Assembly (NCBI GenBank): GCA_014360495.1
Contig: JACIXR010000006.1
Span: 1 to 64,000 of the forward strand
Direction: 5' to 3'
DNA from: a bacterium
Lineage (GTDB): Bacteria; Armatimonadota; JACIXR01
Length of the DNA stretch: 64,000 bases
Shown here: positions 26,176 to 54,048 of the stretch, piece after piece
Position numbering within the stretch: the stretch's first letter is position 1
Layout of the letters: each line of letters opens with the position of its first letter
Notes under the pieces: model-generated
Seen by the model: the letters and a program-made list of their open reading frames with translations, nothing else
The model's database searches: none
What the model was told of the DNA's origin: nothing
Made by a program: the position numbers and the translations under genes

Positions 26176-26180
26176 TGTCT

Positions 26181-26837
26181 TTATTGTGCCCAGCCATACC
26201 ACATTTTGACACGTGTCTCTAAGGGAGTCATCTCCTGCCAATGAACCCATTTGACATATCCATCAACGAAACCGATGTTATTTCAGCCCATATGCCTTAC
26301 ATTTTCCTCCTTTTGGAGGTCGGGATTGCATTGGGCTTGGCAGACATTCGTCCAGGGAACAGCGGCAAGACAACCGAAAGTGGTTGCCGAATCAAATACT
26401 AAAGCTGTCTGGCTGGGACTATCAATGCGAGCAAGGCTGATCGTTCCAGAAACACCCCATTTAGCCCACATACCATGAAGACAGGAATTCATCCCGTAGT
26501 TCGTAGCTGGCCATTGATGAAAGGTCGGGCTACAATATCCGCACCAAATATCCTGCATATAACGAGTGGGACATTTATAAATAGAGGTGTTTTTAACATA
26601 GGGATAGATGTGAGTTGGCCATGTCATATAATTCCAATCGGTGAGAGGGAAACATTCGTCCCAATCTTGCAGATATTGAAGAGTAGCTTGGGTCAATTGC
26701 TTCAAATTAGAGAGACAGTGGGCTTTTCTCGCCTGCTCCCTTGCCCTGCTGAAAACAGGGAAGAGAATCGCAGCGAGGATTGCTATGATAGCTATCACCA
26801 CTAAAAGCTCTATCAGCGTAAATCCTTTCCTTTTCAT
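26181..26837 (-). pseudogene. DUF1559 prepilin-like gene interrupted by an in-frame TGA (copy 3)
   Basis: The leader is identical in protein to copies 1 and 2 ([20 protein letters not shown]) but carries many synonymous differences. The frame stops at TGA (26285-26283) within HMG-stop-NNIGFVDGYVKW, exactly where copy 2 reads [16 protein letters not shown]. Reading on gives 33 more codons and a TAA at 26181, a full protein of about 218 residues that ends 5 nt before the DUF6785 start. One base change, GGA to TGA, explains it. TGA is a normal stop elsewhere here, so this is a nonsense mutation or a base error rather than recoding. Its ATG overlaps the lacI stop (ATGA). Confidence 0.85.
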
Positions 26838-28151: not shown

Positions 28152-31100
28152 CTATTTATTAATTACATCAATCATCTCGGCGTTCCAGGCACCTACTCTT
28201 AATCCTCTCAAGCTTTTTCTTGTTCCCTCTATGTTGGGCATAAGCTCGAATCCGATTACCTTTTCCTCCCCTGGGTCAAGCCAGAAATAACCATCTTCAA
28301 GGCGCAAGCTGTCGGATATATCTGGAGCGGATATATGGACCCCAACGGCGGGCAATTCCCCTATATTCCTCACAACGATTCTATCTCGGTCCATATGAGC
28401 GGATAATCTGGTCTTAGGTAGACTGAATAGGCAGCCCGGCTTCTCTCGGAAATTGAACCAATAATAGTTCCTCGTTAATTTCTTGTCGTTCTTGAGCAAA
28501 TCCAAAACCAATAAGAGAGGTATGTGATTTTCACTTGGAATGGGAAAATCCAATTCGCCAACGAGAAGATTCCCTTCACCCTTACTCACTAATTCAAGCC
28601 TTCTCTCAGCCACCATTTGGAGCTTCCCATTGAACAATCTCACCCAAACCTCGCCCTTTCCCTTGGATTCCTTTTTATCATCCAAAAGCCATATCTCGGT
28701 TTGGAGAATGTCTCCAGGAGGGTAGGAGAAGGATTTGAAGAGGGCGACAACTTGCAGGGGAGCATAGGCGTCTTGCACGAAATAATGTGCTATTTTGGGG
28801 ACGCCGTACCAATCAACCGTGGACCAGGAACAGCCGGGGTAGACATCCGTTAGCTTATAGTAAATAACACCGGTTGAGAGGGGAAATCTCGTTCTCATCT
28901 TTTCCAGAACTACCCTTACGCCGGTTGCTTGCGCCAATTGGCTGCCTCTGATGAAGCCCTGCAAATCCTCGCAAGGGTCAAATTCCTTTGCATAGTGGAG
29001 AAGATGCACCATATTTTGGGGTGTGAATGTCGGAGTATGGTGGATAAAGGCGCTGTCATCGGCAGGAGGCCAGGTATTCCGTTCCTCAGGAGGTAGGTAT
29101 TTCAGCGTGCTTTCATAGGAGCAGGGGGAGGCCAAGCCGAACTCGCCTATGAAAGGAGCGGTTAGGTCCAGATTCCTCTCCAATGGCTGGAGTCCCCAGT
29201 AAACATCGTAGTTATGGATGCTACCCCCGTAGGGGTCGGTTCTATGATAGGGGCGAGTGCCGTCAAGCTCATAGCATTTTCTTCCCAGCAGTTCAATCAA
29301 CCAACCCTGCCCGCTATGTTCATTTCCTCCGCACCAAAGGGCTAAGGAGGGATGATTTCTCAACCTGCGAATGTTCAGATCGGCTATTTCCTCCGCAACA
29401 GCCTGCCGTATAACATCAAATTTCTGCCAAGTGAGGGGAAATTCTTGCCAAACCATTATGCCCAGCTCGTCGCAGATATCGTAAAATGTGTCCGTTTCCA
29501 ACAACCCTCCTCCCCAAGCCCGAAGAATCTGGATATTTGCGTCCTTTGCTAAAGTGAGGAATCTCCTATATCTTGCTTCATCAAGCCTGAGAAAGGCATC
29601 AAGGGTTGCCCAGTTCGTTCCTTTGAGAAAAACAGGTCTTCCATTTATGACGAAGGTCCAATTATAAAGGTGGGGTTTAGGACCGTCTGGCAAGGGGGTC
29701 GTCTTTATTGTGCGGATGCCGAAACGAGTGGAGGAAAAATCAAGGATGCGATTTCCCTCTTTATAAGCTATTTGTAGATGGTAAAGATTCTGCTCGCCCA
29801 ATCCATTAGGATACCAGAGGCGAGGATTGGGAATAGCAAATTGCAAATGCTCTTGCCAAAACATACCTTTCCCTTTCACGGGAAGGGTAAAACGATAGGA
29901 TTTTCCTTTGAAGTTAGCTGGGGTGAGCACTCCCTCAATTTCGCCCTGAAAAGCCCTCTTGCTTCTCAAAGCGATGTAAAGGCTCATCAAACCTTTCTGA
30001 GCGTCTTGAGTGGATATAAATAAATCTGTAATCTCAACATCGGGGACGGTTTCCACCCTCACCGAGCGCCAGATTCCAATGGGTGGGCAGTTCACATAAT
30101 GCCATCCGTAGACGCAGTTCGTTTTGAAAACGAGCGTCCAATCAGGAGGTATGGGGTCAATGCGGACTATTAGGGTGTTTTGTTTCTGAACGATGCCCGT
30201 TATATCAAATGTGGGACCGCCGAAGGGACCTTCGTGCTCCCCTAAGCGGACGCCATTGAGATAGAAGGTGGCGCTATAATCTACTCCCTCAAAGACGAGG
30301 CGGGTAGGCTTTCCAGGCTCCCAAGCGAAGTCCTTGCGAAACCACCATTCTTTCTCAGCGACTTCCTTCCGAGCGATTTGGTCGTTGAAACCAACGGTGG
30401 GGTCAGGTATTTTCCCCGCCTTGAAAAGGGCTGTTTGCACGCTACAGGGAACCTCCGCTTCCATCGCCTCCTCCCAACCTTCTCCTTTGATGAGCTTACC
30501 CTCATTGCCTTTTCCACGAGGAAAGCCAAGCATAAGCCACTTGCCATCAAGCTTGAGAGTTTTGCGAGGATTTCTCAAAATCTTCTTTTCCGTAGGCTGA
30601 AGTTGAATCCCCTTGGGAGGAAGAGAGAGCGGGGAGGGGGCAGGAGAGAAGGCTTCGTAATCAATATCATCAAGGGATTTGCCAGCCACTCCCTCCTCTC
30701 TAAGGAGTTCCTCGTAAGTTGTAGCCTTGATTTCTCCTTGCTTTATCGCCTCTGCGATTTTGACCACTGCTTCAAGCCAATAGTTCCTCACTCGCTCGCT
30801 CATATCCTCTCCACCACCCCAATGGATTAGCCATCCCTTGCCATAGGGGATGGCTCTCAACAAGGGAACGCAATCTAAACTCCATATTAGAACCGCTGCT
30901 TTTGAGACCTCAAAGGTGCGAATGGGACGCGCGGGAAGATTTATTGGCTCTAAAAGTCCAATCCTTTTCCCCTGCTTTGTCAACTGGAGCTCGCCCGAGC
31001 CGAAACATACGGAGGCACGCCAGCCGAAGAAATCGTCCCAATGATTTGAATCCAACTTTCCAGTTTTTATGTCCTTGCTTATGTAATGGGGAACGCCGAT

Positions 31101-31439
31101 GGGCATCGCATATATACCACCTTGCTCAACATATTTCTTCAATGCCTCCGCAACAACACCTCCCCAAGTGCCAATCTCTGGATAAGTGTGGTCGGTGGAA
31201 ATGAGTATCACATCGTATTTTGAGAAGCCTTCCAATGATAGTTCCTCGGCGGTTAAGAGCTTGGGTGAGCATTCAAATTTCTTCAAAAAATTGAGTACTT
31301 CCTCTCCCTTCCAAAGGGAGGCGAAGGGTTTAGCCCAAGTGGAGTAATCAACGAGTTCATCAGCAATTACTCCGACTTTAAGAGAACAATAAGCTGGCAA
31401 AACAGGGATAATGAGAAATAAAAGAGAGAAGTATTTCAA
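28152..31439 (-). CDS. Secreted GH2 beta-mannosidase-like enzyme with N-terminal Rossmann-like domain
   Basis: A 1095-residue exported protein. The TTG at 31439 is the best start: it overlaps the stop of the upstream gene, sits behind GGAAGGGAGGGA, and yields a signal peptide (MKYFSLLFLIIPVLPAYC). Residues ~20-230 resemble a glutamine-amidotransferase-like or ThuA-like fold (LKVGVIADELVDYS, YDVILISTDHTYPEIG, KYVEQGGIYAMP). Residues ~290-1000 are a GH2 enzyme of the beta-mannosidase branch: WWFRKDFAW, VDYSATFYLNGVRLGEHEG, ILRAWGGG, acid/base Glu707 in CGGNEHSG and nucleophile Glu766 in FIGEFGL. It is the last gene of the operon with GH92, so removal of terminal beta-mannose from a mannose-rich glycan is likely. 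The gap 27935-28151 upstream of lacI holds no gene I can support. Confidence 0.85.
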   Translation of the reverse strand: MKYFSLLFLIIPVLPAYCSLKVGVIADELVDYSTWAKPFASLWKGEEVLNFLKKFECSPKLLTAEELSLEGFSKYDVILISTDHTYPEIGTWGGVVAEALKKYVEQGGIYAMPIGVPHYISKDIKTGKLDSNHWDDFFGWRASVCFGSGELQLTKQGKRIGLLEPINLPARPIRTFEVSKAAVLIWSLDCVPLLRAIPYGKGWLIHWGGGEDMSERVRNYWLEAVVKIAEAIKQGEIKATTYEELLREEGVAGKSLDDIDYEAFSPAPSPLSLPPKGIQLQPTEKKILRNPRKTLKLDGKWLMLGFPRGKGNEGKLIKGEGWEEAMEAEVPCSVQTALFKAGKIPDPTVGFNDQIARKEVAEKEWWFRKDFAWEPGKPTRLVFEGVDYSATFYLNGVRLGEHEGPFGGPTFDITGIVQKQNTLIVRIDPIPPDWTLVFKTNCVYGWHYVNCPPIGIWRSVRVETVPDVEITDLFISTQDAQKGLMSLYIALRSKRAFQGEIEGVLTPANFKGKSYRFTLPVKGKGMFWQEHLQFAIPNPRLWYPNGLGEQNLYHLQIAYKEGNRILDFSSTRFGIRTIKTTPLPDGPKPHLYNWTFVINGRPVFLKGTNWATLDAFLRLDEARYRRFLTLAKDANIQILRAWGGGLLETDTFYDICDELGIMVWQEFPLTWQKFDVIRQAVAEEIADLNIRRLRNHPSLALWCGGNEHSGQGWLIELLGRKCYELDGTRPYHRTDPYGGSIHNYDVYWGLQPLERNLDLTAPFIGEFGLASPCSYESTLKYLPPEERNTWPPADDSAFIHHTPTFTPQNMVHLLHYAKEFDPCEDLQGFIRGSQLAQATGVRVVLEKMRTRFPLSTGVIYYKLTDVYPGCSWSTVDWYGVPKIAHYFVQDAYAPLQVVALFKSFSYPPGDILQTEIWLLDDKKESKGKGEVWVRLFNGKLQMVAERRLELVSKGEGNLLVGELDFPIPSENHIPLLLVLDLLKNDKKLTRNYYWFNFREKPGCLFSLPKTRLSAHMDRDRIVVRNIGELPAVGVHISAPDISDSLRLEDGYFWLDPGEEKVIGFELMPNIEGTRKSLRGLRVGAWNAEMIDVINK

Positions 31440-33193: not shown

Positions 33194-36100
33194 TCAGTCG
33201 TAAATCTTCATTTTACCTATCAGCCCATAGAACCAATCGCCTGGAGGGGCATCCCTTCGCTTTGTGCCGATGTAAAGGGGGTCGTTGGTAATGGGAATCG
33301 TTCCTTTCACATCGTTTCTCTCGCTTATCTTTTTCCCATCAATCCAAATCTGCATAAATCCCCTTTTTCCGTCGTATTTCGCGAGGATGTGATGCCATTG
33401 ACCGGGAACGGGCAAATCGCAGGACAAATATCCATTCTGAATGCCAGCGATATGCCAAACCAACTTTCCACCCTCGGCGGTTAGCCTATATTGATTATCG
33501 TTTGTCCCTTTCTGGAGTATTCTCCTGTTTCCATTCCAATCTATGGGATAAATCCAAACGCAAACGGTTATGGAGTTAACGGGATTTAGGGATGGGGAAT
33601 TTGGGACCTCCACATAGTCATTGGCTCCATTGAATCTCAAGGCATATCCTCTATCTCCCTGCTCCCATTGCGCTCCCACTATGCGTCCATCATTCCCACA
33701 TAATGATGAATCCTTCAGGATGTCACCTCCCTTTCCCTCCATCTTATACCATAGAACAACGAACTCCCCAACAGGGAAAATAACGGGCTTGAAATCCCCT
33801 ACGCTTAAGCGATGGAGTCCCTCACTTGCTATATTAATGGGGATGCTTAGTTTCTTTTCCTCCCCAGGGGCAAGGCTTACCCTCCTAGTTTCCGCTATTT
33901 CATCATCAAGGTAGATTTTCACATCCTCCTCTCCCACTTTGCTTCCTATGTTCTTTAGGGTAACCTCCACCACGGCATCATTTTCCCCTTTCCTAACTAC
34001 ATTGAATCCCAGATATTGAATTGAAGCGGGTCGTTCCAAGACCTTTACTTTCTTGGGAGGCAAATTGCCTACCTGCAGGAGATGCTCTCCAGCGGAGAAC
34101 AATCTGCAGGGGATTTCCACCCTTGTCTTCTCGCCCGAATTCAGAACAATCTTTTTCGTTAAAAACAATTTTCCGTCTTGGAGAAGCTTTACTTCAACCG
34201 TTCCCAAGCCACCGATGTTCTTCACGTCAACGCTTACCTTGAACTCCTCATTTGGCTCAACTACTTCCTTCTCGACTTGAAGATTGGAATATTCCTCTTT
34301 GGGTTCCTTAGTGGTGATTGAAGGCGGAGCGGATTTGGGGTCGCTACCCCACTTCTTATTCGGCTCTTTCCCCATCCAGAAGACGAGCTTTCCGCCTTTT
34401 TCTATCTCTGAATGCCAGAACCAGGGTCTATTCAAGGGCTTTCCATTGAGCTCAGCTTTTTGAATATACTTGTTCACTTTGGATACATTGTGAGCGATTA
34501 TCTCCAAATCCTTGCCGTTTCCCAAATGGATAATTGCTCTCTTAACCATCGGGCTGCCAATCTGATAGGTCGGCTGTCCGGGGCAGACGGGATAGAAGCC
34601 GAGAGCGCTGAATAGATACCAAGCTGACATCTGCCCGCAATCGTCATTGCCGGGAAGTCCATCAGCTGAAGCTTTAAACAGTCTTTCCATTGTATGCCTT
34701 ATCCATTCCTGGGTTTTCCAGGGAGCTCCCGCGTAATCAAACATAAAGGGAGCCTGCATACTTGGTTCGTTACCGGGGTCGAAGTGCCCCTCCCGAAAGA
34801 ATCTATCCAATAGCTCAACGAACTTTTCCCTACCACCTATCAAATTTATCAATCCCTGAACATCGTGAGGGACATAGAAGGTGTAAATCCAGGCGTTGGC
34901 TTCAGTAAACCAGGGATACCATTGATTTGGGTCGGATTCCTCAACCCACGAGCCGTCTGACTTCCTTCCCCTCATAAATCCCGTTTCAGGGTCAAAAACA
35001 TTTCTATAATTAAGGGAGCGTTCAAGGAAATAGCGATATTCATCCATCCTCCCAAGAGCCTTTGCCATCTGAGCCACGCAATAATCATTATAGGCGCCCT
35101 CAAGCGTATTTGAAACCGCCTCGCCAACCTTATCTACCGGGCAATAGCCAAGCTTCTTGTAATATTCAATCCCTTCCCTTGCCTCATAATATCCAGCGGG
35201 CGTCTCGCCTCCCGGGACCATTGCATCCTTCCACATAGCCTGATAGGCTTTCTTTGCATCAAACCCCCTTATGCCCTTTACATACGCATCTGCGATGACG
35301 GAATCGGCATGCGTGCCAATCATTACATTTGTATATTTGGGATTCGGCCACTTTGGCATCCAGCCACCCTCTTCGTAAATCCTGACCAATCCCTCTATCA
35401 TCTTCGCATTCTCTTCGGGCTCAAGGAGAACGAGGAGGGGGTGTTCTGCCCTATAGGTGTCCCAAAGGGAGTAATCCTCATAGTAATTCCCCTGATGAAT
35501 CTTGCCGTCAAAAGGGCTAAGGTAATAGCCATCCTCGTTGAAAATGCGAGGTAGAAGATAACAATGGTACAGTGCTGTGTAGAAGATTTTCTTCTCCTCA
35601 TCTGTCCCCTCTATCTCTATTTTCCTCAATTTCTCATCCCAAATCCTCTTAGCTTGAGAGCTTATTTCCTCAAAGTTCCAGTTGGGAATCTCCTTATCAA
35701 GATTTTTCTTTGCTTGCTCAACGCTTATGAAGGAGGAGCCAATCTTCACTAAAATTGGCTCGTTTTGTGTTGTAGAGAACTTCACATAGGCACCTGCGCC
35801 GCCTCCCTCCTCTGAAATAGAGCCTTTGTGGACTTCATTCCCTTTGAATGTCCCGAATTCGCTGAATGGCTTGTTGAATTTGGCATAGAAATAACCCCTA
35901 TACCTGTAATCGTTGTAGCCGAAGATTTCCCCTTTCTCGGGAATAATTTTCACGGAGCCCGAGCCCATAGGGTTATCAATCAGAATGTAGGCTTCATTCG
36001 TCTGAGGGAATGTGAAGCGGAAGAAACCACAGCGGATTGTAGCGGTTATCTCCGTTTTGATGGAATAATCTTTCAAGATGACGGAGTAATAGTGAGGGAG

Positions 36101-36466
36101 GGCTATCTCATCCGAGTGGTTGAAAGAGGAAGCTCTTTCCTGGGGAGAAGTCTTCAGCTCGCCGACGAGGGGAGTTATGCCGATGCATCCGTAATCGCCC
36201 ATACAGGAGCCGCTCGGGAAATGGGTTCCCCTGAAGCCTTGAATCTTCTTATCGTTATAATGGTATGGCAGGTCCTGCCTTCTCGTTTGGGGTGCCCAAG
36301 CGGTCATTCCGAAGGGGAGGGAGGCTCCGGGAAAGCATCTACCATCCGCGCCGCTCCCGATTCTCGTGTCCACATAATCCGAATAAGAGGGGTTCTTCTT
36401 AGGGGCATTGAAAGATTGAAGCGAGATTAAAAAGAGGAGAGAAAGGAAAATGAATGTTTTTTTCAT
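33194..36466 (-). CDS. Secreted GH92 alpha-mannosidase with CARDB and LamG modules
   Basis: A 1090-residue exported enzyme. Start: ATG 36466 behind TAGGAGGTG, giving signal peptide MKKTFIFLSLLFLISLQSF. Residues ~30-725 form a GH92 exo-alpha-mannosidase (calcium-dependent, inverting): YVDTRIGSGADGRCFPG, LPFGMTAWAPQ, WDTYRAEHPLL, and the strongly conserved GLPGNDDCGQMSAWYLFSA and GFYPVCPG. Then come two CARDB-like beta domains (~740-925; VKNIGGLGTVEVKL, LKNIGSKVGEEDVKI) and a terminal LamG/concanavalin-like domain (~930-1090; ALRFNGANDYVEVPNS, WIYPIDWNGNRRILQK). The accessory domains suggest binding to an insoluble or cell-attached glycan. It is the second gene of the leftward mannoside operon after DUF6785 copy 2. 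Confidence 0.93.
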   Translation of the reverse strand: MKKTFIFLSLLFLISLQSFNAPKKNPSYSDYVDTRIGSGADGRCFPGASLPFGMTAWAPQTRRQDLPYHYNDKKIQGFRGTHFPSGSCMGDYGCIGITPLVGELKTSPQERASSFNHSDEIALPHYYSVILKDYSIKTEITATIRCGFFRFTFPQTNEAYILIDNPMGSGSVKIIPEKGEIFGYNDYRYRGYFYAKFNKPFSEFGTFKGNEVHKGSISEEGGGAGAYVKFSTTQNEPILVKIGSSFISVEQAKKNLDKEIPNWNFEEISSQAKRIWDEKLRKIEIEGTDEEKKIFYTALYHCYLLPRIFNEDGYYLSPFDGKIHQGNYYEDYSLWDTYRAEHPLLVLLEPEENAKMIEGLVRIYEEGGWMPKWPNPKYTNVMIGTHADSVIADAYVKGIRGFDAKKAYQAMWKDAMVPGGETPAGYYEAREGIEYYKKLGYCPVDKVGEAVSNTLEGAYNDYCVAQMAKALGRMDEYRYFLERSLNYRNVFDPETGFMRGRKSDGSWVEESDPNQWYPWFTEANAWIYTFYVPHDVQGLINLIGGREKFVELLDRFFREGHFDPGNEPSMQAPFMFDYAGAPWKTQEWIRHTMERLFKASADGLPGNDDCGQMSAWYLFSALGFYPVCPGQPTYQIGSPMVKRAIIHLGNGKDLEIIAHNVSKVNKYIQKAELNGKPLNRPWFWHSEIEKGGKLVFWMGKEPNKKWGSDPKSAPPSITTKEPKEEYSNLQVEKEVVEPNEEFKVSVDVKNIGGLGTVEVKLLQDGKLFLTKKIVLNSGEKTRVEIPCRLFSAGEHLLQVGNLPPKKVKVLERPASIQYLGFNVVRKGENDAVVEVTLKNIGSKVGEEDVKIYLDDEIAETRRVSLAPGEEKKLSIPINIASEGLHRLSVGDFKPVIFPVGEFVVLWYKMEGKGGDILKDSSLCGNDGRIVGAQWEQGDRGYALRFNGANDYVEVPNSPSLNPVNSITVCVWIYPIDWNGNRRILQKGTNDNQYRLTAEGGKLVWHIAGIQNGYLSCDLPVPGQWHHILAKYDGKRGFMQIWIDGKKISERNDVKGTIPITNDPLYIGTKRRDAPPGDWFYGLIGKMKIYD

Positions 36467-36486
36467 AAAAACACCTCCTACTATTT

Positions 36487-38424
36487 TTATGGCCATGGGA
36501 AGAAAGGAGGAGGGACCCTCGTGAGGGAAGATATTAGGGTCCAGATGACAGCCATCGTGAACTCGCCCAATATCATCCCCAAAAACAAGGGGCGACCTTT
36601 AGCGAAGAGCTTCATTCCACCGTAGCGAGTGATAAACCATTTGATTATCCAAGCCACGAAAACTGGGAACCAGAAAACAATCATCGTCCAGGAGGCGCAG
36701 AGGGCATATCCTAAAGGGTGAAGTGGCCACCAAAAATATCTGAAACGCATAAAGGCAAGGAAGAATGTGAAGATAGCGCCAGCTGCGAAGAATGTGGGCG
36801 CTCGCCAATCGTGAGAGATATGAGATTCTATTGCTGGGGCATGGTCCTGAAAAGCCCAAAGGCAGTTCCCCTGATAAACATATTCATAGAGGGTAATCCC
36901 TCCATACTTGTAGGGAATCATTAGGTGAAGGATGGTGCCGACGCCTAAAGCAACTAAAATGGCTATGGCGAAAACGGGAAGGAACTGTCTCCTTTTTATT
37001 CCCACACCATCGCCGAGTTTCAAGCCGTCTAGGAAAGCCGTGAGGAGCAATCCTCTCTGGTCTCTTGTGAAGACTGCATCCAAAAAGGCAAGAGTTGTGA
37101 GATTTTGCGCTCCGAGGGTGCTCTTTGAGGCGAAGACGGCATATAAATCAATGGGGCGGAAGGAGGTCTCCGTCATAAGCATTCCTGCTTCAGCTGTACT
37201 TCTCGCCATAACGATTGCCACGATGAAGAAGTAGACGAAGAACTCCATCACAGCCAACCAAATTGATAATCCCGTAACATAAGCCCAGCCGACGATGAGG
37301 ACGAACGAGATAAGCAATCCCCAGAAAGCGACGCTATAAGGCAGAAGCTCGTTTGAATCGTCAATGACCTTCTTCCCGATGGCATTTTTTAAGACCTTCT
37401 TGAAATGTGGGAAGCTAATATAAAGAAGGTAAAAAGAAAGGACGATATACGCTCCTGCGACTTGATAGCCGATGAATAAGTGAGTGGGATAGAGGGGCAT
37501 ATTGTCCATAACCATTCCCAAAGAAGAGGCTATTACATCCTGGAGGCGTGAGAAGGCGAAGAAAAACCAAAGGCTGAAAAGGAGCTCGGTGGGGAGGAAG
37601 TAGAAGAAACCGATGGCGGCGAAGGAACAGTAAATGGGTGTGTAGAAGATATCCGACCAGGGACGGGTGGTGAAATGCTGGTTGAGATTATATTGAAGGG
37701 GGATTTCTGGAAGGGAAGGGATGAATTTTTGTATGCCGTTATAAATGAAGATGACAGAGGGTATGGCGAAGCCAATCCAGGTGAGGCGGTTGGAGAAAAA
37801 CGCGCCCGTCTCCTCATCCCTTGCGAGTTCGAGGGGAAGTTGGATGAGGGGGAAGGAGAGCTTCTCGTTATCAACCCATTGGCGGCGGAGGAGGGTTGCG
37901 AGGCAGAGGAGAGCAAAATAGACGAGGAGAACTAAAATTATCCAGGAGATGAGGGGAATTTCCCATTTCCCTATCCAATGTTGCCATCTGCTCCAAGAAA
38001 GGGTGCCTTCGTAGAATTCCTTAGCCACCTCTTGCTGTGCTTCGCCTGCGGGATTCCAAGGGACGAGCCATCTTTTAATATGGGGGAAGAAGAGCTCCTC
38101 CCATTTATTCGGCACATTGGCATAGTAATTCTCGGAAACTAAAAGGGGAATGAGTTTCTCAAGGAGCCCGCGGGAGGCAATCATAGTTCCCACGAGCATC
38201 ATTGAATAAATAATGAGCATTTCCTGTGGGGTAAGATGGAATTTCTTTGAGATTTTCCCGGCGAGTCTATTTATTATGAGGACGAATGTGAACATACCAA
38301 TGACAACGGGAGGAAATTGAAGGATGCCGATTTGGATGTATTTGGTAACCAGCTCGGCGAAGCAGACGGTGATGACGCAGAGAATAACGCAGATTATGCC
38401 GATAATTAAGCTTCTTAGAGTCAT
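36487..38424 (-). CDS. DUF6785/DUF6784-type multi-pass membrane protein (copy 2)
   Basis: A 645-residue polytopic membrane protein and first gene of the GH92-GH2 operon (GH92 starts 20 nt downstream). It shares with the other copies the loop after helix three (WLVPWNPAGEAQQ), FAAIGFFYFLPTELLFSLWFF, GAQNLTTLAFLDAVF, WWPLHPLGYALCASWTM and LGMILGEFTMAVIW. The motif seen as GPPTHE in copies 1 and 3 is diverged here (RSTAEAGMLMTETSF), so it may handle a different ligand. Function is unknown; import of oligosaccharides released by the co-expressed mannosidases is my inference. There is no ribosome site: the ATG lies 7 nt after TAAATT. Confidence 0.85.
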   Translation of the reverse strand: MTLRSLIIGIICVILCVITVCFAELVTKYIQIGILQFPPVVIGMFTFVLIINRLAGKISKKFHLTPQEMLIIYSMMLVGTMIASRGLLEKLIPLLVSENYYANVPNKWEELFFPHIKRWLVPWNPAGEAQQEVAKEFYEGTLSWSRWQHWIGKWEIPLISWIILVLLVYFALLCLATLLRRQWVDNEKLSFPLIQLPLELARDEETGAFFSNRLTWIGFAIPSVIFIYNGIQKFIPSLPEIPLQYNLNQHFTTRPWSDIFYTPIYCSFAAIGFFYFLPTELLFSLWFFFAFSRLQDVIASSLGMVMDNMPLYPTHLFIGYQVAGAYIVLSFYLLYISFPHFKKVLKNAIGKKVIDDSNELLPYSVAFWGLLISFVLIVGWAYVTGLSIWLAVMEFFVYFFIVAIVMARSTAEAGMLMTETSFRPIDLYAVFASKSTLGAQNLTTLAFLDAVFTRDQRGLLLTAFLDGLKLGDGVGIKRRQFLPVFAIAILVALGVGTILHLMIPYKYGGITLYEYVYQGNCLWAFQDHAPAIESHISHDWRAPTFFAAGAIFTFFLAFMRFRYFWWPLHPLGYALCASWTMIVFWFPVFVAWIIKWFITRYGGMKLFAKGRPLFLGMILGEFTMAVIWTLISSLTRVPPPFFPWP

Positions 38425-46665: not shown

Positions 46666-49600
46666 ATGGTTAAAGGGAGGTTGAAGGAATTGAGAATTTT
46701 CAATATCCTTTTATCCGTTCTTTTTGCTCTTCCTCTTTTGGGGGCGAATTTTGAGTTCACGAAGGAGAATTACGCCGGTCGTTCGGGGATTGTCCTCGGA
46801 GGGCTGGGAACGGGCACGATTGAGATTCGTCCAAATGGAGCGCTTGAGGAATGGCAGATTTTCAACAACACAGCTAACCCCTATCCTAGTCCTCGCAGTT
46901 TCTTTGCCATAAGAGTCAAACAGGAAGGAAAGGTTCCCATTGCGAAGGTGCTTCAGCTGACTCACGAAACCCTTCCCACGATTGAAAAGATATACTATAA
47001 AGGGGAATTTCCTTTCGCCCATCTTCTTTATAAAGATAGGGAATTGCCAATCCAAGTAGAGATGTCTGCCTTTTCATCCTTCATTCCTCACGATTATAAG
47101 AACTCCGCTCTTCCCCTCGCTTTCTTCCGCTTCAAATTGAAGAACACTTCTACCAAAAAATGCGAGGCATCCCTCCTTTTCGCCTGTCAGAATATGGTGG
47201 GGATAAGCGAAGGCTACAGTGGGAAGGTTGCGAACAGGTTAATTGTCCAGAAGGGATTTTATGGAGTCGATTTGAGCGTTCCCGTAGGAGAACCAGCTTC
47301 TTATTCCCGCCCAATTAGGGTGCTCATGATCTCGCGCCCGGATGTTTCCGATTTCCGAGACCAGCTTGTTCGCACAATTGAGGCGAGAGATCTGACGATA
47401 AGATGGGTCAAAGTTGAGGGAGGGAAGGTCGTTTTGCCCACAAAAGACGCCGCGCAATTGAAGAGAGAATACGACATACTTTGGCTTGCTGAGACCACGA
47501 GGATGGCGGAAAGCCTTGGCGAGGAGAATATGAGGGTTATTCAGGAGGCAGTGCGGATAGGGATGCCCTTCATCTTAACCGGCGGCTGGGATTCCTTCTA
47601 CGGCTACAATGAGGAACGCTGGGGGAAGTTAGCGGGAACAATCATTGAAGAGATAGTGCCAATTAAGTTCAAAACGTCCTTTGATGCGGTTAATCAGCCG
47701 ATAGATATGATTATTAAAGATGCATCTCATCCTATATTTCAAAACTTCCCACGAGAATCCATCCATCTGGGTGGATACAACGAGATTGCCGAGCTTAAGC
47801 CTGAAGCGAAAGTGCTTATGGCTTCCCCAGATGGCAAACCCCTTCTCATAGAGGGAAGGTATGGGGATGGGAAGGTGCTAGTGCTGGCAACTGCGATTTG
47901 GGGAGGCTGGCCGGCTAATAGCACATCTTGGTCTTCATTATTGAGGAGCATCGTAGCCTACCTCGGTGACGCTCAGTATGGTTCACCCACCGGTCTCCCT
48001 AAGGATTCACCAACGATGGGCGATATATTCATCGCAACTAATTCTCCTGCCCAGCCATCTGTCTGGGAAGATTACACCTCCCTTTGGAAAGATTTCACCC
48101 AAAGGGGGATTGTATCTCAGAAGGAGGGAAGGGATGGATGCCTGAGCGTACAGGTAACCCTTGCCCCGAGGGAGGAGAGGGAGGTCTTATTCCTCCTCTC
48201 TTGGTATTTCCCCAATCTCTACGATTCACAGAGGCGACTTTTAGGGCATAAATACGAGGAATGGTTCAAGAACGCTGAAGATGTAGCGAAATATGGCTTG
48301 AATAATTATCAGCGTCTTTATACTGAATCCCTTGCCTTCCACGACGCCTTCTATTCCACCCTTCCTCACTGGCTTGCCGATGCCATTAACTCCCAGTTCA
48401 CCACTCTTTACAAGAGCTCCTGGTGGACTAAGGATGGAACATTTGGGATTTGGGAAGGTATGAATGCCTGTTGTGGTCTGCAGACAACAGATGTGAGCTA
48501 TTACGGTTCCTTCCCCGTCCTTCTCTTCTTCCCCGAGTTGGAGAAGGTTGAAATAGGATTGACCGCTCGCGCTCAAAGCGAAAAGGGAGAAATCCCGCAT
48601 TTCTTCCCCGCCCGCTTTGATGTTCCCGATGGCTACTGGCGAATAGATATGGAGCCACAGTTCATCCTGATGGTCTATCGTGATTATCTTTGGACGGGAG
48701 ACAAGGCGTTCCTCGTGAAGATGTGGTCTCATGTAAAAAGAGCGATAGATTACGAGCTCTCAATAGATAGTGACGATGATGGCATTCCCAATATAGAGGG
48801 TTCCGCCTTGACCTATGATGGGTGGCCTATGCATGGAACGAGCGTTTATGTTGCGAGCGTTTGGCTTGCTGGTTTGCGAGCGGCGAGCGAGATGGGCTAT
48901 ATAGTGGGCGATAGGGAGATGGCACAACGCTACGCAGCCCTTTATCGCAAGGCGAGGGATAGCTTCATCAAGGAGCTTTGGAATGGCGAGTATTTCATTC
49001 TATATCACGATGTCGCAACGGGTCGCAAGGATAATTGCTGTATGCTCGACCAGATGAACGGTCAATGGTACGCCCATATGCTGGATTTGGGATATATCCT
49101 TCCCAAAGACATGGTTAAGTCGGCGATTACTGCTTGCTATAAATACAATAGAAAGCCCGTTCAAAAGGGAATGGCGTATATAGATTGGCAAAAAGGAGAA
49201 TGCTGGGTGAACGGCGCCTGGCCAAGAGGAGGAGCAACCGTGCCAGAGATAGGAGGACAATGGGGTTCCCCCTGGACGGGAACGGAGTATATGTTCGCTT
49301 CACTTTTAATCTACGAAGGAATGGTCAAGGAGGGTCTGGATGTAGTGAAGGCTGTATACGACCGCTACAATTATGCCGGCTTGACCTGGAACCATATAGA
49401 ATGCGGATGGCACTACTTCCGCCCAATGGACTCTCTAACAATCCTGCTCGCTTTGCAGGGCTTCAACTACGACGCGCCCAAAGCTTCCCTTTCCCTTAAA
49501 CCGAGATTCAATCCCCAAAATCATACCTCTCCCTTCGTAATTCCCACAGGTTGGGGCATATTCACTCAGGAAAGAAAGGAAGGAAAACAGATTAACTCAC

Positions 49601-49803
49601 TTACTCTAAAGAGAGGTAAACTCGTCCTCTCCTCGCTTCGCCTTCAAACGGATAAAAGGCCGAGCTCGGTATTAGTTGAGAAGCGAGCTAAGAGGGCAAC
49701 TAAAATAGCTGCGGAGTTCAGCTGGAAAGATGGAGAACTCATCCTCAACTTTAAGGAACCCTTAACCCTCCAAATGGGAGATAGGCTGTACATAGAGATG
49801 TGA
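46666..49803 (+). CDS. Secreted GH116 glycosidase with inserted Rossmann-like domain
   Basis: A 1045-residue exported enzyme of the GBA2-like GH116 family (beta-glucosidase, beta-xylosidase or glucosylceramidase). Signal peptide to about residue 27 (IFNILLSVLFALPLLGA), N-terminal beta-sandwich with GIVLGGLGTGTIEIRPNG and LEEWQIFNN, and a C-terminal alpha toroid with candidate nucleophile Glu597 in GIWEGMNACC and candidate acid/base Asp718 in TYDGWPMHGTSVY; GHYF-type WHYFRPMDSLTILLALQGF near the end. Residues ~214-428 interrupt the sandwich with an amidotransferase-like domain (IRVLMISRPDVSDF, YDILWLAETTRM, PFILTGGWDSFYGY, GRYGDGKVLVLAT), unusual for GH116. ATG 46666 fits a leaderless promoter; a TTG at 46690 behind AAAGGGAGG is the alternative. 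The next gene overlaps by 4 nt. Confidence 0.88.
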   Translation: MVKGRLKELRIFNILLSVLFALPLLGANFEFTKENYAGRSGIVLGGLGTGTIEIRPNGALEEWQIFNNTANPYPSPRSFFAIRVKQEGKVPIAKVLQLTHETLPTIEKIYYKGEFPFAHLLYKDRELPIQVEMSAFSSFIPHDYKNSALPLAFFRFKLKNTSTKKCEASLLFACQNMVGISEGYSGKVANRLIVQKGFYGVDLSVPVGEPASYSRPIRVLMISRPDVSDFRDQLVRTIEARDLTIRWVKVEGGKVVLPTKDAAQLKREYDILWLAETTRMAESLGEENMRVIQEAVRIGMPFILTGGWDSFYGYNEERWGKLAGTIIEEIVPIKFKTSFDAVNQPIDMIIKDASHPIFQNFPRESIHLGGYNEIAELKPEAKVLMASPDGKPLLIEGRYGDGKVLVLATAIWGGWPANSTSWSSLLRSIVAYLGDAQYGSPTGLPKDSPTMGDIFIATNSPAQPSVWEDYTSLWKDFTQRGIVSQKEGRDGCLSVQVTLAPREEREVLFLLSWYFPNLYDSQRRLLGHKYEEWFKNAEDVAKYGLNNYQRLYTESLAFHDAFYSTLPHWLADAINSQFTTLYKSSWWTKDGTFGIWEGMNACCGLQTTDVSYYGSFPVLLFFPELEKVEIGLTARAQSEKGEIPHFFPARFDVPDGYWRIDMEPQFILMVYRDYLWTGDKAFLVKMWSHVKRAIDYELSIDSDDDGIPNIEGSALTYDGWPMHGTSVYVASVWLAGLRAASEMGYIVGDREMAQRYAALYRKARDSFIKELWNGEYFILYHDVATGRKDNCCMLDQMNGQWYAHMLDLGYILPKDMVKSAITACYKYNRKPVQKGMAYIDWQKGECWVNGAWPRGGATVPEIGGQWGSPWTGTEYMFASLLIYEGMVKEGLDVVKAVYDRYNYAGLTWNHIECGWHYFRPMDSLTILLALQGFNYDAPKASLSLKPRFNPQNHTSPFVIPTGWGIFTQERKEGKQINSLTLKRGKLVLSSLRLQTDKRPSSVLVEKRAKRATKIAAEFSWKDGELILNFKEPLTLQMGDRLYIEM

Positions 49804-51902
49804 ATAGCAGAGGCATTCTCATCCTAGGGTTTTCAATTTTAGCGGGGCTATGCTTAGCGAAGCAAAGCCGCCTCTATATAGCCTCTCAGCATAACTGGGA
49901 GGAGAAGAGAGGATTCTATATAGACTTTGAGAATACATCAGAGGGAGAGGTTTGCCATATGGCAAACCTCTCCCTTGTTCTTGCCATCGCCGATGGTGAA
50001 AAGTGGCGCTTCCTATCTTTCAAACCACAGTGGCAAACGGGAAAGGAATATTTTTTAAAGGCAGAGATAAACAAAGAAACAGCGAGAATTTGGCTTGATG
50101 ATGAACTAATAGGAGAAAGCGAAGGAGGCTTTCTCCCTGCAGATGATTTTCTTTGGCTCAACTACATTCCCCTTTGGGGTAGAGTAAGACAGGATTATAT
50201 CGTCTTCTTAAAAGACATTAATTTGGAATCTGGCAATCAAAAAATCAGTTTCTCCTTCCAGCCCTCCATTCCTCTTTTCCTCTTTGAACCCCAATGTCCG
50301 AAGAGAATGAAATGGAAAACAGAAGGGGCAATAAAATTAAATGCTCACTTTATAATAATCTCCTATCCCGACCTCAGAAGCTTATCTCCCTTCATAGACA
50401 GCTATGGTCAATGCAGATATGCTGATTGGGAGGGGAAGATTAAAAGCGATGAGGATTTGAAAAGGGCTTGGGAAAAGGAAATGGAGATTCTAAAGGAATG
50501 GGGAGAGCCGAGGGGATATGACCGCTTCGGAGGATATGAGCTATTAGGATGGAAGGAAAAGGGAACAGGATTTTATAGAGTCGTAAAGAGAGAAGGTTAT
50601 TGGTGGTTGATAACGCCTGAGGGAAATCCTTGTTTTTATCTGGGGCTCTGTGCTGTCCCACCCGCTCCCTGGGAAATTATGACGCCTGTTTCTGGCAGAG
50701 AATTCCTATTTGAGTGGCTTCCTCCCAAGGAGGGTCTTTATTCCGAGGCTTGGGGTAGGGGATACTGGGGTGAAAGCGAGAAGGATTTCTTCTGTTTCCA
50801 TTATTCAAATATGATAAGCAAATACGGAAAGGATTGGAGAAAATTGGGGGAGGAAATCACGAGAAGAAGGTTGAAATCTTGGGGATTTTCCGGGGTGGGA
50901 AAATGGGGAAGGTTGGAAGGGATGCCCTATTTTCCCGTTTTGGGGAGATGGGATGTCCCAAACCTCGTTAGCCATCCAGATATCTTTGATGAGAAAGTAA
51001 GGGGAAAATTCAGGGAAGCGCTTCGCAATCAAATTGAGCCGAAAAGGGATGACCCTTACATCGTTGGCTGGTCATTGGGCAATGAGTATGACGAGATAAT
51101 ATCAAGGGAGGAGATAAAGGAGATTCTGGGAAAGGGGGCTGATGTGCCAGCTAAAAGGGCGCTGATAGATTTCGCTTTGGAGAAGATATATAAAGGGGAT
51201 TTTAAAGCGATGGTTGAAGCTTGGGGAAGTAAGGCTGAGGAGAAAGAAGGGCTTTATGAGGAAAAGCTCAACCCGCCAAGCAGTGATTTGGAGGAATTGA
51301 GGCGATTTTATTCCGAGAAATATTACGAATTCGTCTATAAAACAGTGAAAGAGCTCGACCCCAACCATTTATTCTTAGGCTTTTGGATTATTCCCTCTTG
51401 GTGGGAGGATGAAGATTATTGGGAGCTATTTAAAATCTCCGCTAAATATTGTGATGTAATAGGCTATAATTTGGGCGCCTATGAATTTATGAGCGAGAGA
51501 TTTAAGAGATTAGTTGAGGAAGTTGGCAAGCCTATAATCTGCGGAGATTTTTCCTTTCCCGCTTTTTATAATGGGGGAAGAGGATTTGGGATATGGGGGG
51601 AAATTTTCGTTAAGGATGAGGCTGAGGCGGGAGAATATTATCAGGAATGGATAAGGGAAGGAGCTGAGAATCCATACTGTGTGGGCTTTCTCTGGTTCCT
51701 TTATCGGGACCAACCGATAACCGGTAGAGGACCCTGTGGGATTGACATCGTTACAAGAGGTCCTAATCCACCAGACCTTGTCTGCGGTGAGCATTATGCT
51801 TTTGGGCTGGTGGATATAACCGATACTCCGAAATGGGAATTGGTAAGGCGAGTAAGGGAAGCGAACCTCTCGGCGATAAAATTAAGGGCGGGAAAGAGAT
51901 AG
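49800..51902 (+). CDS. Secreted GH50-like protein with Asp at the nucleophile position
   Basis: A 700-residue paralogue of the protein at 1913-3982, with the same layout: signal peptide (GILILGFSILAGLCLA), N-terminal beta domain (LYIASQHNWEEKRGFYIDF, split as LYIASQHNWE and EKRGFYIDFENT), and TIM barrel (WWLITPEGNPCFYLG, WGFSGVGKWG). The acid/base Glu429 (GWSLGNEYDE) is kept, but the nucleophile motif reads IICGDFSFPAFY, with Asp583 where the paralogue has Glu579. This could slow or abolish a retaining mechanism or change it; binding without catalysis is possible. The start is a GTG overlapping the GH116 stop (ATGTGA), so the two are translationally coupled. A DUF6785 gene follows after 226 nt. 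Confidence 0.8.
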   Translation: MNSRGILILGFSILAGLCLAKQSRLYIASQHNWEEKRGFYIDFENTSEGEVCHMANLSLVLAIADGEKWRFLSFKPQWQTGKEYFLKAEINKETARIWLDDELIGESEGGFLPADDFLWLNYIPLWGRVRQDYIVFLKDINLESGNQKISFSFQPSIPLFLFEPQCPKRMKWKTEGAIKLNAHFIIISYPDLRSLSPFIDSYGQCRYADWEGKIKSDEDLKRAWEKEMEILKEWGEPRGYDRFGGYELLGWKEKGTGFYRVVKREGYWWLITPEGNPCFYLGLCAVPPAPWEIMTPVSGREFLFEWLPPKEGLYSEAWGRGYWGESEKDFFCFHYSNMISKYGKDWRKLGEEITRRRLKSWGFSGVGKWGRLEGMPYFPVLGRWDVPNLVSHPDIFDEKVRGKFREALRNQIEPKRDDPYIVGWSLGNEYDEIISREEIKEILGKGADVPAKRALIDFALEKIYKGDFKAMVEAWGSKAEEKEGLYEEKLNPPSSDLEELRRFYSEKYYEFVYKTVKELDPNHLFLGFWIIPSWWEDEDYWELFKISAKYCDVIGYNLGAYEFMSERFKRLVEEVGKPIICGDFSFPAFYNGGRGFGIWGEIFVKDEAEAGEYYQEWIREGAENPYCVGFLWFLYRDQPITGRGPCGIDIVTRGPNPPDLVCGEHYAFGLVDITDTPKWELVRRVREANLSAIKLRAGKR

Positions 51903-52128: not shown

Positions 52129-54048
52129 ATGGAAAGAAAAGGCATAAGCTGGCGAGCTTTTTTAATTGGTTTCCTTCTCATTCCTCCCAATGTGTATTGG
52201 GTTATGATGGTGGAGGGAATTTGGCACACTGGTCATCCCAGCGTTATGTCTTTGCCCTGGAATGTCGTCTTTAACATCCTTATTTTGTTGCTCATAAATC
52301 TTTTAATAAAAAGGACTTTCCCCCACCTTGCCCTCACGCAGGGGGAATTTATCGTCATATATATTATGCTCGCTCTGGCGAGCGTAATAGCTGGGCACGA
52401 TTCCCTCCAGCTCGGCATCCCTGAAATGGCTATTCCCTACTGGCTTGCCACTCCCGAGAACAAATGGCAAGAGCTCTTCTTCAAATATCTTCCCAAATGG
52501 TTAATAGTTCCCAAGAAAGATATGGTCGCTCCCTTTTTCATCGGCGGAGAGAACTTCTTCCAGAAGGAATATTTAAGGGCTTGGCTTCCTCCCATCCTTT
52601 GGTGGTGTCTCTTCATCTTTTTCTTAGGTCTTATGATGATTGCCATAAACAGCATAATAAGGAAGCAGTGGGTTGAGAACGAGAAGTTGAGCTATCCAAT
52701 AATTCAACTCCCCTTGGCGATGACGGAGCGCGGTGGTGAAGCCACTTTCTTCAAAAACAGGACTCTCTGGGTTGGCTTCGGAATTGCTGCGCTCATTGAT
52801 ATCATCAATGGTCTCCGTGTTCTCTATCCTACTTTCCCCCTCTACATACGTGTTCGTCACGATGAGGTAAATTTAGGTCAATACATAACGACCTTTCCCT
52901 GGAACGCGATAGGCTGGCTTCCATTGCCTTTATATCCCTTCATAATCGCCATGGGTTACTTTATGCCCCTAGACCTATCATTTTCTCTCTGGTTTTTCTA
53001 TCTATTCAAGAAAATGCTCTTGGTAATCACCGCTGCGTTAGGCTATCAGGAAAGGACGGGAGCTTTCCCCTATATAAATGAACAATCCTATGGAGCTTGG
53101 TTCGCTCTTTTCTTTTACGCTGTTTGGGGGGCGAGGCGCCATCTTTGGCTGACAATTAAGAAGGCATTAGGCAAGGCGGATATAGATGATAGCGACGAAC
53201 CCCTCAGCTATCGCAGTGCCTATTTGCTTCTAATTGTTTCCTTTTCTTTCCTCGTTTGGTTCTGCGTGAGAGCAGGAATGTCTTTAGGGATAACCCTTGC
53301 TTTTTTCTTCATAGTATTTGTTATTTTATTCGCCATAGCCCGGGTTCGGGCGGAAGTGGGTCCGCCAACTCACGAGATGGCTGGTTCAATGAATGCATAC
53401 AACATCTTGACGGAAATCTTGGGAACGAAGGGGGTTGGCGGGAACAACCTGACTGTTTTTTGCCTTTTCTGGTGGCTAACGGGCAGAGGGTATAGGACGA
53501 CACCTATGCCTTTCTATCTTGAAGGCTACAAGATGGCTGAGGAAGCGAAGACGAGTGCAAGAGGGTTGATTTATGCGATGGCTGTTGCTCTTCCTTGGGG
53601 AGCTTTCTGCGCCTATATAGCGGCATGCTATGAACAGTTCAAAGTCGGTCCAAGCCCCCTTTTGGACCACAATTACTACATATATAATCAATTGGCAACG
53701 GACCTTTCCTCTCCAAGAGCGGTAAATCCAGGGGCGATGATAGCGATGGGGGTCGGGATAGCCTTTACCGTTTTGATGATGAATATGCGTGCCCGTTTCG
53801 TTTGGTGGCCTCTTCACCCTGTAGGCTATGCTATTTCAATGAATTTCGGAGCGGAATATTACTGGTCCTGTCTCGTTATAAGCACGCTCATAAAATTCAT
53901 CGTTATAAAAGTGGGAGGCTATAAATGGCATAGAAGGGTCATTCCATTTATGTTCGGCATCATATTGGGGGAGTATTCGGTGGGCGCCTTCTGGAGTGTT
54001 TTGAGCGTTATTCTGCGTCAGAGGATGTACGATTTCTGTCCGGGTTAA
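52129..54048 (+). CDS. DUF6785/DUF6784-type multi-pass membrane protein (copy 3)
   Basis: A 639-residue polytopic membrane protein. It shares with copy 1 an N-terminal ISWRAFLIGFLLIPPNVYW (copy 1: MPWRAIILGCLLIPLNCYW), LYPFIIAMGYFMPLDLSFSLWF (split as LYPFIIAMGY and FMPLDLSFSLWFF), RVRAEVGPPTHEM near residue 405, WWPLHPVGYAIS and IPFMFGIILGEYSVGAFW. The first part of the GPPTHE region lies next to a long helix and is the most conserved polar motif, a candidate substrate or ion site. It follows two secreted glycosidases on the same strand, the third such pairing in the window. No transport family is recognised with confidence. Confidence 0.85.
   Translation: MERKGISWRAFLIGFLLIPPNVYWVMMVEGIWHTGHPSVMSLPWNVVFNILILLLINLLIKRTFPHLALTQGEFIVIYIMLALASVIAGHDSLQLGIPEMAIPYWLATPENKWQELFFKYLPKWLIVPKKDMVAPFFIGGENFFQKEYLRAWLPPILWWCLFIFFLGLMMIAINSIIRKQWVENEKLSYPIIQLPLAMTERGGEATFFKNRTLWVGFGIAALIDIINGLRVLYPTFPLYIRVRHDEVNLGQYITTFPWNAIGWLPLPLYPFIIAMGYFMPLDLSFSLWFFYLFKKMLLVITAALGYQERTGAFPYINEQSYGAWFALFFYAVWGARRHLWLTIKKALGKADIDDSDEPLSYRSAYLLLIVSFSFLVWFCVRAGMSLGITLAFFFIVFVILFAIARVRAEVGPPTHEMAGSMNAYNILTEILGTKGVGGNNLTVFCLFWWLTGRGYRTTPMPFYLEGYKMAEEAKTSARGLIYAMAVALPWGAFCAYIAACYEQFKVGPSPLLDHNYYIYNQLATDLSSPRAVNPGAMIAMGVGIAFTVLMMNMRARFVWWPLHPVGYAISMNFGAEYYWSCLVISTLIKFIVIKVGGYKWHRRVIPFMFGIILGEYSVGAFWSVLSVILRQRMYDFCPG

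Follow-up and report, generated by a model that had tools for sequence, protein, structure and literature searches.

The inserted domain discussed here is missing from the solved GH116 glycosidases TxGH116 and ExoMA2. As far as the available parts of the two reports go, the solved enzymes TxGH116 and ExoMA2 combine a beta-sandwich with an alpha/alpha barrel and an acid/base aspartate (PMC10167657, PMC10509167), ExoMA2 possessing in addition a long loop within the N-terminal domain (PMC10509167). A class I amidotransferase-like (GATase1-like) fold on an exported carbohydrate enzyme is known from the Agd3 esterase (CE18) of Aspergillus fumigatus, where it forms the N-terminal module CBM87. According to the accessible portion of that report, residues 141-364 of Agd3 adopt the GATase1-like fold, are structurally closest to 3RHT, and lack the Cys-His-Glu triad; conserved aromatic residues at the C-terminal sheet edge bind the glycan, and replacement of W344 raised the Kd 12.7-fold (PMC7229062). 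Alpha/beta accessory domains of glycosidases have also been described in GlmA and the GH42 family. In the excerpts at hand, domain II of GlmA makes the dimer and touches the barrel of the partner, oligomerisation turns a cleft into a pocket in both GlmA and GH42 (PMC6566704), and a type 1 amidotransferase-like domain follows the barrel in one GH42 of Bifidobacterium (PMC9323360).

The GH116 glycosidase P0001 is encoded at 46,666-49,803 on the forward strand of the window, the whole stretch of 64,000 nucleotides analyzed here. The open reading frame of 1045 residues matches PF12215, the GH116 N-terminal family, in two stretches (E = 9.4e-51, 173.7 bits) and PF04685, the GH116 catalytic family (E = 1.3e-65, 222.5 bits), both above the Pfam cut-offs. 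Its best match in the PDB is TxGH116, and residues 590-997 also match the exo-beta-D-arabinofuranosidase 8IC6. Residues 1-26 form a hydrophobic, signal-like stretch as judged by eye, and the host protein is probably exported, given the signal-like or twin-arginine-like appearance of the N-termini. The first part of the N-terminal sandwich comprises residues 40-204 (46,783-47,277, with PF12215 matching at 42-190); the second part, together with a linker, comprises residues 440-530 (47,983-48,255, from Pfam and the alignment described below), and the catalytic domain follows at residues 531-960 (48,256-49,545, PF04685). The earlier note had a domain splitting the sandwich at about residues 214-428, with three motifs that lie at residues 219-230, 302-314, and 403-414. 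Comparison with the insert-free GH116 L089 confirms this division and widens its limits: residues 39-204 and 440-1041 of P0001 abut at L089 residue 335, the first alignment stopping at residue 204. Because L089 aligns to both flanks with nothing in between, we assign the entire insertion to residues 205-439 (47,278-47,982, phmmer coordinates). TxGH116 has 66 residues between the matched pieces, whereas P0001 has 288.

The core of the insert, residues 213-432 (47,302-47,961), belongs to the GATase1_like family PF07090, which matches residues 274-423 with an E-value of 2.5e-14 and 53.9 bits against a Pfam cut-off of 27. In the PDB, the insert alone matches 3RHT, 2GK3, and 3SOZ at 1.6e-11 to 2e-6, and a profile of seven orthologous inserts matches the same entries at 4e-13 to 1.7e-10. 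The fold is thus known by homology, and the proposal of a class I amidotransferase-like domain holds. A resemblance to ThuA had been suggested as well; PF06283 is indeed found, but with 20.9 bits for the whole protein and 24.8 bits for the insert alone it does not reach its cut-off of 33.4. The insert is homologous to the three stand-alone PF07090 proteins of the PDB in its C-terminal two thirds. The full-length model of P0001, built from three sequences, had a mean pLDDT of 34.5 and was unusable. Among the viral contigs searched, we found no relatives of the insert or of the GH2 N-terminal domain discussed below.

The stand-alone proteins are separate chains of about 250 residues carrying the motif S-D-x-x-P-H-W, which is present in all five stand-alone relatives compared (three PDB chains and two plasmid-borne proteins). 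The insert within GH116 shows A-T-A-I-W-G-G-W instead, so that the aspartate and the histidine of the motif are gone. At this place lies the conserved WGGWP of P0001 (residues 412-416, 47,899-47,913). The motif is likewise missing from L074, a stand-alone protein within the phylum, and its loss is therefore not special to fusions. The insert core of P0001 contains no cysteine, and neither cysteine nor histidine occurs among the 51 invariant insert residues of the seven orthologs, leaving no Cys-His-Glu triad. A second conserved stretch, GGWDSFYG (residues 306-313, 47,581-47,604), in which G306, G307, W308, D309, F311, Y312, and G313 are invariant in the seven orthologs, appears to occupy the place of the nucleophile elbow of class I amidotransferases. 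Judged from these residues, the insert lacks the catalytic residues of amidotransferases and is most probably catalytically dead. Coupling of the glycosidase to an active amidotransferase, or to a ThuA-type enzyme acting on sugars, would fit the membership in PF07090 and a stand-alone relative encoded in a sugar operon of Aureimonas. However, the absence of cysteine, the lost aspartate and histidine, and a ThuA score under the cut-off speak against it, and the host looks exported, away from the usual ATP-dependent partner, which makes active catalysis by the insert very improbable.

We detected the insert at E ≤ 0.001 in 35 of 291 genomes of the window's phylum and the full architecture of GH116 with insert in seven, three from the same genus as the window and two each from families f8 and f10. 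Since these seven genomes keep it in frame, with dN/dS of about 0.06-0.12 for the insert (pairs for which dS was computable), the architecture of P0001 is no artefact. The orthologous inserts share 58-63% identity with that of P0001 inside the genus and 39-41% in the other families; for the catalytic domains the values are 87-89% and 46-49%. Purifying selection acts on the insert, which nevertheless evolves faster than the catalytic domain. Invariance in the seven orthologs is concentrated on aromatic residues: 13 of the 21 aromatics are invariant, including W308, F311, Y312, W412, and W415, compared with 38 of the 199 other residues (Fisher p = 6.7e-5), a comparison covering the insert core and residues that are generally well conserved anyway. 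Several of these aromatics may be core residues.

We propose, with a probability of about one half, that the insert is a dead GATase1-like module that binds glycan and extends the groove of an exported GH116 exo-glycosidase. Seated in a hairpin of the sandwich, the insert would enter and leave the host at a single edge and could thereby be held rigidly. The invariant aromatics at the edge of the former amidotransferase site would stack on a polysaccharide, and the ends of the bound chain would be presented to the GH116 pocket with E597 and D718. Export, glycan binding, and a position beside the active site are the properties we infer for the insert. In the part of the Agd3 report available, CBM87 shares with the insert a triad-free GATase1-like fold on an exported carbohydrate enzyme, conserved aromatics in the same region, and 3RHT as a relative; it differs in being N-terminal on an esterase, whereas the P0001 domain lies inside the sandwich and its glycan binding is predicted (PMC7229062). 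Agd3 is absent from the five PDB matches of the insert profile at E ≤ 10, and we accordingly use CBM87 as a structural rather than a sequence precedent.

The main rival is an oligomerisation module, which would pair subunits and close the cleft into a pocket, as domain II of GlmA and the trimerisation of GH42 beta-galactosidases do. Apart from these precedents, PF08532, the GH42 trimerisation family, matches L068 and L075, two other domain-bearing proteins of the same phylum, and ExoMA2, a GH116 without insert, is a dimer according to the part of the report available (PMC10509167). Like the insert, the GH42 and GlmA domains are alpha/beta accessory domains of glycosidases; however, as described in the accessible texts, they follow a TIM barrel and make an oligomer (PMC6566704, PMC9323360), and P0001 is not matched by PF08532 at E ≤ 1. 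The invariant residues of the insert also seem grouped at the former catalytic edge, not spread over the surface, which speaks against oligomerisation; we consider it a serious candidate, albeit a somewhat unlikely one.

For the glycan-binding module, the occupancy of the same hairpin in other GH116 enzymes is informative. A GH116-like match at E ≤ 1e-20 was found in 201 of the 291 genomes of the phylum. We sampled 110 GH116 loci (30 retrieved by search, 80 by stretch), corresponding to 107 distinct open reading frames, and the sample is biased towards P0001 because most loci were chosen among the highest-ranking similarity matches. The hairpin holds neither module in 53 of the 107, the GATase1_like domain in seven, a beta-sandwich of about 140 residues alone in 22 (e.g., L165, L180, and L181), and a sandwich nested in GATase-like flanks in 25, some of the latter being weakly supported. 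In 23 of the 53 module-free proteins, the region spans 127-165 residues and is longer through another kind of stretch. The sandwich thus occupies the hairpin in 47 of the 107 proteins, and beta-sandwiches are the usual build of binding modules. The beta-sandwich of the GH116 hairpin ends in WGHINVDHI or a similar sequence; the nested stretch had no Pfam match in the five proteins scanned.

Once the sandwich was removed, the flanks of the 25 nested cases, taken as a group, proved related to the set of seven inserts (95.9%, E = 5.5e-9, score 62.0), compared with a maximum score of 20.0 in 40 shuffles. Only the seven orthologs were used for this comparison; the iterated profile, which included some of the GH116s with large inserts, was avoided as circular. 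Taken singly, the flanks gave E-values ranging between 5.5e-6 and more than 0.1. For 12 of the 25, no individual match reached the classification threshold, and L185 and L197, whose flanks are short, are doubtful as nested cases.

Outside the phylum, all five plasmid-borne GH116s compared, from Bacteroidota and Pseudomonadota, show 20-38 residues at the position that takes up 236 in P0001, and none of them gave a GATase1-like match. The insertion, absent from these and from the solved structures, is therefore not part of GH116 as commonly described, in line with the earlier note, and the 53 sampled proteins with neither module show that it is not standard in GH116 of the phylum either. Among the papers listed in the literature searches, most of them non-subscription, we found no description of this GH116 insertion. 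Because the same site is occupied in other GH116s, the insertion in P0001 is not a one-off, and the hairpin is an insertion hot spot within the window's phylum. When mapped onto a tree built from the catalytic part, presence or absence of the GATase-like domain requires five changes and the full set of four hairpin states six, but the starred branches alone force fewer, so that repeated gain is likely, not proven. As a tentative extension, which we would sooner doubt than assert, the hairpin might be an evolutionary socket into which GATase-like and sandwich modules have been plugged several times, even nested in each other, with relatives common to GH2, forming an unrecognized family of swappable glycan-binding modules.

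Domains related to the insert also occur in GH2 enzymes. L049, another GH2 encoded in this genome and with orthologs in genomes G001 and G002, matches PF07090 at residues 775-923, between Ig-like domains. A tree of 38 domains places all seven GH116 inserts in one group (support 98/94), and a wider branch (97/96) unites them with three GH2 domains, one domain of the large GH2-bearing protein L076, and one stand-alone protein. Since related modules sit in unrelated glycosidases of the same bacterium, we regard the domain as a reusable, little-noticed accessory part. The combination of this reuse in GH2 with the frequent sandwich at the hairpin, the invariant aromatics, and the CBM87 precedent leads us to favor the glycan-binding reading. 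The insert could instead be a structural hitchhiker, a compact domain with close ends that is tolerated by a permissive hairpin and at most stabilizes hot-spring proteins. Such a view gains from the variety of the hairpin, which hosts different domains or none, and from the 53 sampled enzymes that manage without either module. Against it stand the constraint on the insert (the dN/dS values given above, and an identity between families of about 40%, near that of the flanking sandwich) and the recurrence of closely related domains in GH2, and we consider it unlikely.

Elsewhere, L062 (2,652-5,576) shows a VWA domain between the two halves of its PF07090 match, which means that the GATase1-like domain itself hosts insertions; L063, L064, L069, and L070 show similarly split matches. 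L051, L052, and L053 (about 1195 residues) have a GATase1_like domain at about 250-405, followed by weak GH127/GH9-like matches, and are possibly a third class of glycosidase with the same kind of insertion.

A similar domain had also been noticed at the N-terminus of P0002, a GH2 glycosidase at 28,152-31,439 on the reverse strand (PF22666, PF00703, PF02836, PF17786). This domain (30,735-31,382, reverse strand) matches no Pfam family at E ≤ 10, and PF07090 matches none of the ten members of its family, which is present in 10 of the 291 genomes. The ten-member family matched a 38-member GATase1-like profile at 95.5% (E = 1.6e-8, score 55.3), while column shuffles reached at most 24.5 (n = 60) and the reversed alignment 19.2. 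When single proteins of the window (39 proteins from 46 open reading frames of at least 150 residues, overlapping frames left out) were scored against the broad GATase1-like profile, P0001 reached 263.5, P0002 40.3, and the next protein 21.0. From the profile score above the shuffles and the ranking within the window, we take the P0001 insert and the P0002 domain to be remote relatives. The broad profile was iterated from the insert itself and came to include DUF7408- and GH42-like members, so its result indicates kinship at the superfamily level only. When the two small profiles were compared directly, no significant match resulted (probability 1%, P = 0.053). The similarity thus stands as superfamily kinship, not as a direct match; neither of the outcomes that would have refuted the earlier note, unrelated folds or an insertion standard in GH116, was observed. 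A single-sequence model of the P0002 domain reached a mean pLDDT of 49.7; with this low-confidence model, Foldseek found no match at E ≤ 0.001, VIA-align returned generic flavodoxin- and receiver-like alpha/beta domains (best Z 7.5), and no GATase-like entry was among the matches listed for either program. As far as sequence comparison goes, the sharing of the domain between GH116 and GH2 is real, with the P0002 domain as a remote member; the idea of an accessory domain common to two unrelated glycosidases is better borne out by L049, which groups with the GH116 inserts.

The catalytic center of P0001 seems intact. E597 (48,454-48,456) and D718 (48,817-48,819), the candidate nucleophile and acid/base, are present in all 107 sampled GH116s. 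D718, within TYD, aligns with the acid/base D593 of TxGH116. The nucleophile E441 of TxGH116 aligns with Q606, and we considered a loss of the nucleophile. This was rejected, because sequence alignment does not bring the nucleophiles of GH116 subfamilies 1 and 4 into register, according to the available part of the ExoMA2 report (PMC10509167), and E597 is invariant. Glu431 of ExoMA2 in the same text, together with this invariance, makes E597 the likely nucleophile. Within residues 597-609 (48,454-48,492), C603 occurs in 107 and C602 in 104 of the 107 proteins, with a third cysteine in one large clade (CCPxNCTHVW); these cysteines might form a metal or thiolate site.

The annotation "putative glutamine amidotransferase" given to such domains in genomes would be incorrect in this case. 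Should glycan binding by the domain hold true, its family, which has many fusions in the phylum, could supply new binding modules, and the hairpin of GH116 would offer a natural and repeatedly tried position at which to attach a further domain to a glycosidase. The single case of Agd3 would then become a testable general rule, by which dead GATase-like folds are reused to grasp sugar chains.

Downstream, a relative of beta-agarases (49,800-51,902, forward strand) overlaps the P0001 gene by four bases and matches 4bq2 (E = 1.7e-40), which we take to be a GH50 beta-agarase; it adjoins the P0001 orthologs in G001 and G002 as well. The same cluster contains a DUF6785/DUF6784 protein (52,129-54,048, forward strand; PF20581, E = 6.8e-156), presumably a membrane transporter. 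Two further proteins of this type lie near glycosidase genes at 24,337-26,250 and 36,487-38,424, both on the reverse strand, and this recurrence suggests a dedicated type of transporter. P0002 is accompanied by a GH92 enzyme, another DUF6785 protein, and a LacI-type regulator, and the surroundings of both P0001 and P0002 look like polysaccharide-use clusters. The GH92 (33,194-36,496, reverse strand) carries a C-terminal Laminin_G_3 domain. In the Persicobacter locus L202 (1,333-4,026 and 4,033-5,406), an insert-free GH116 lies beside GH28 genes, which hints at pectin-like substrates.
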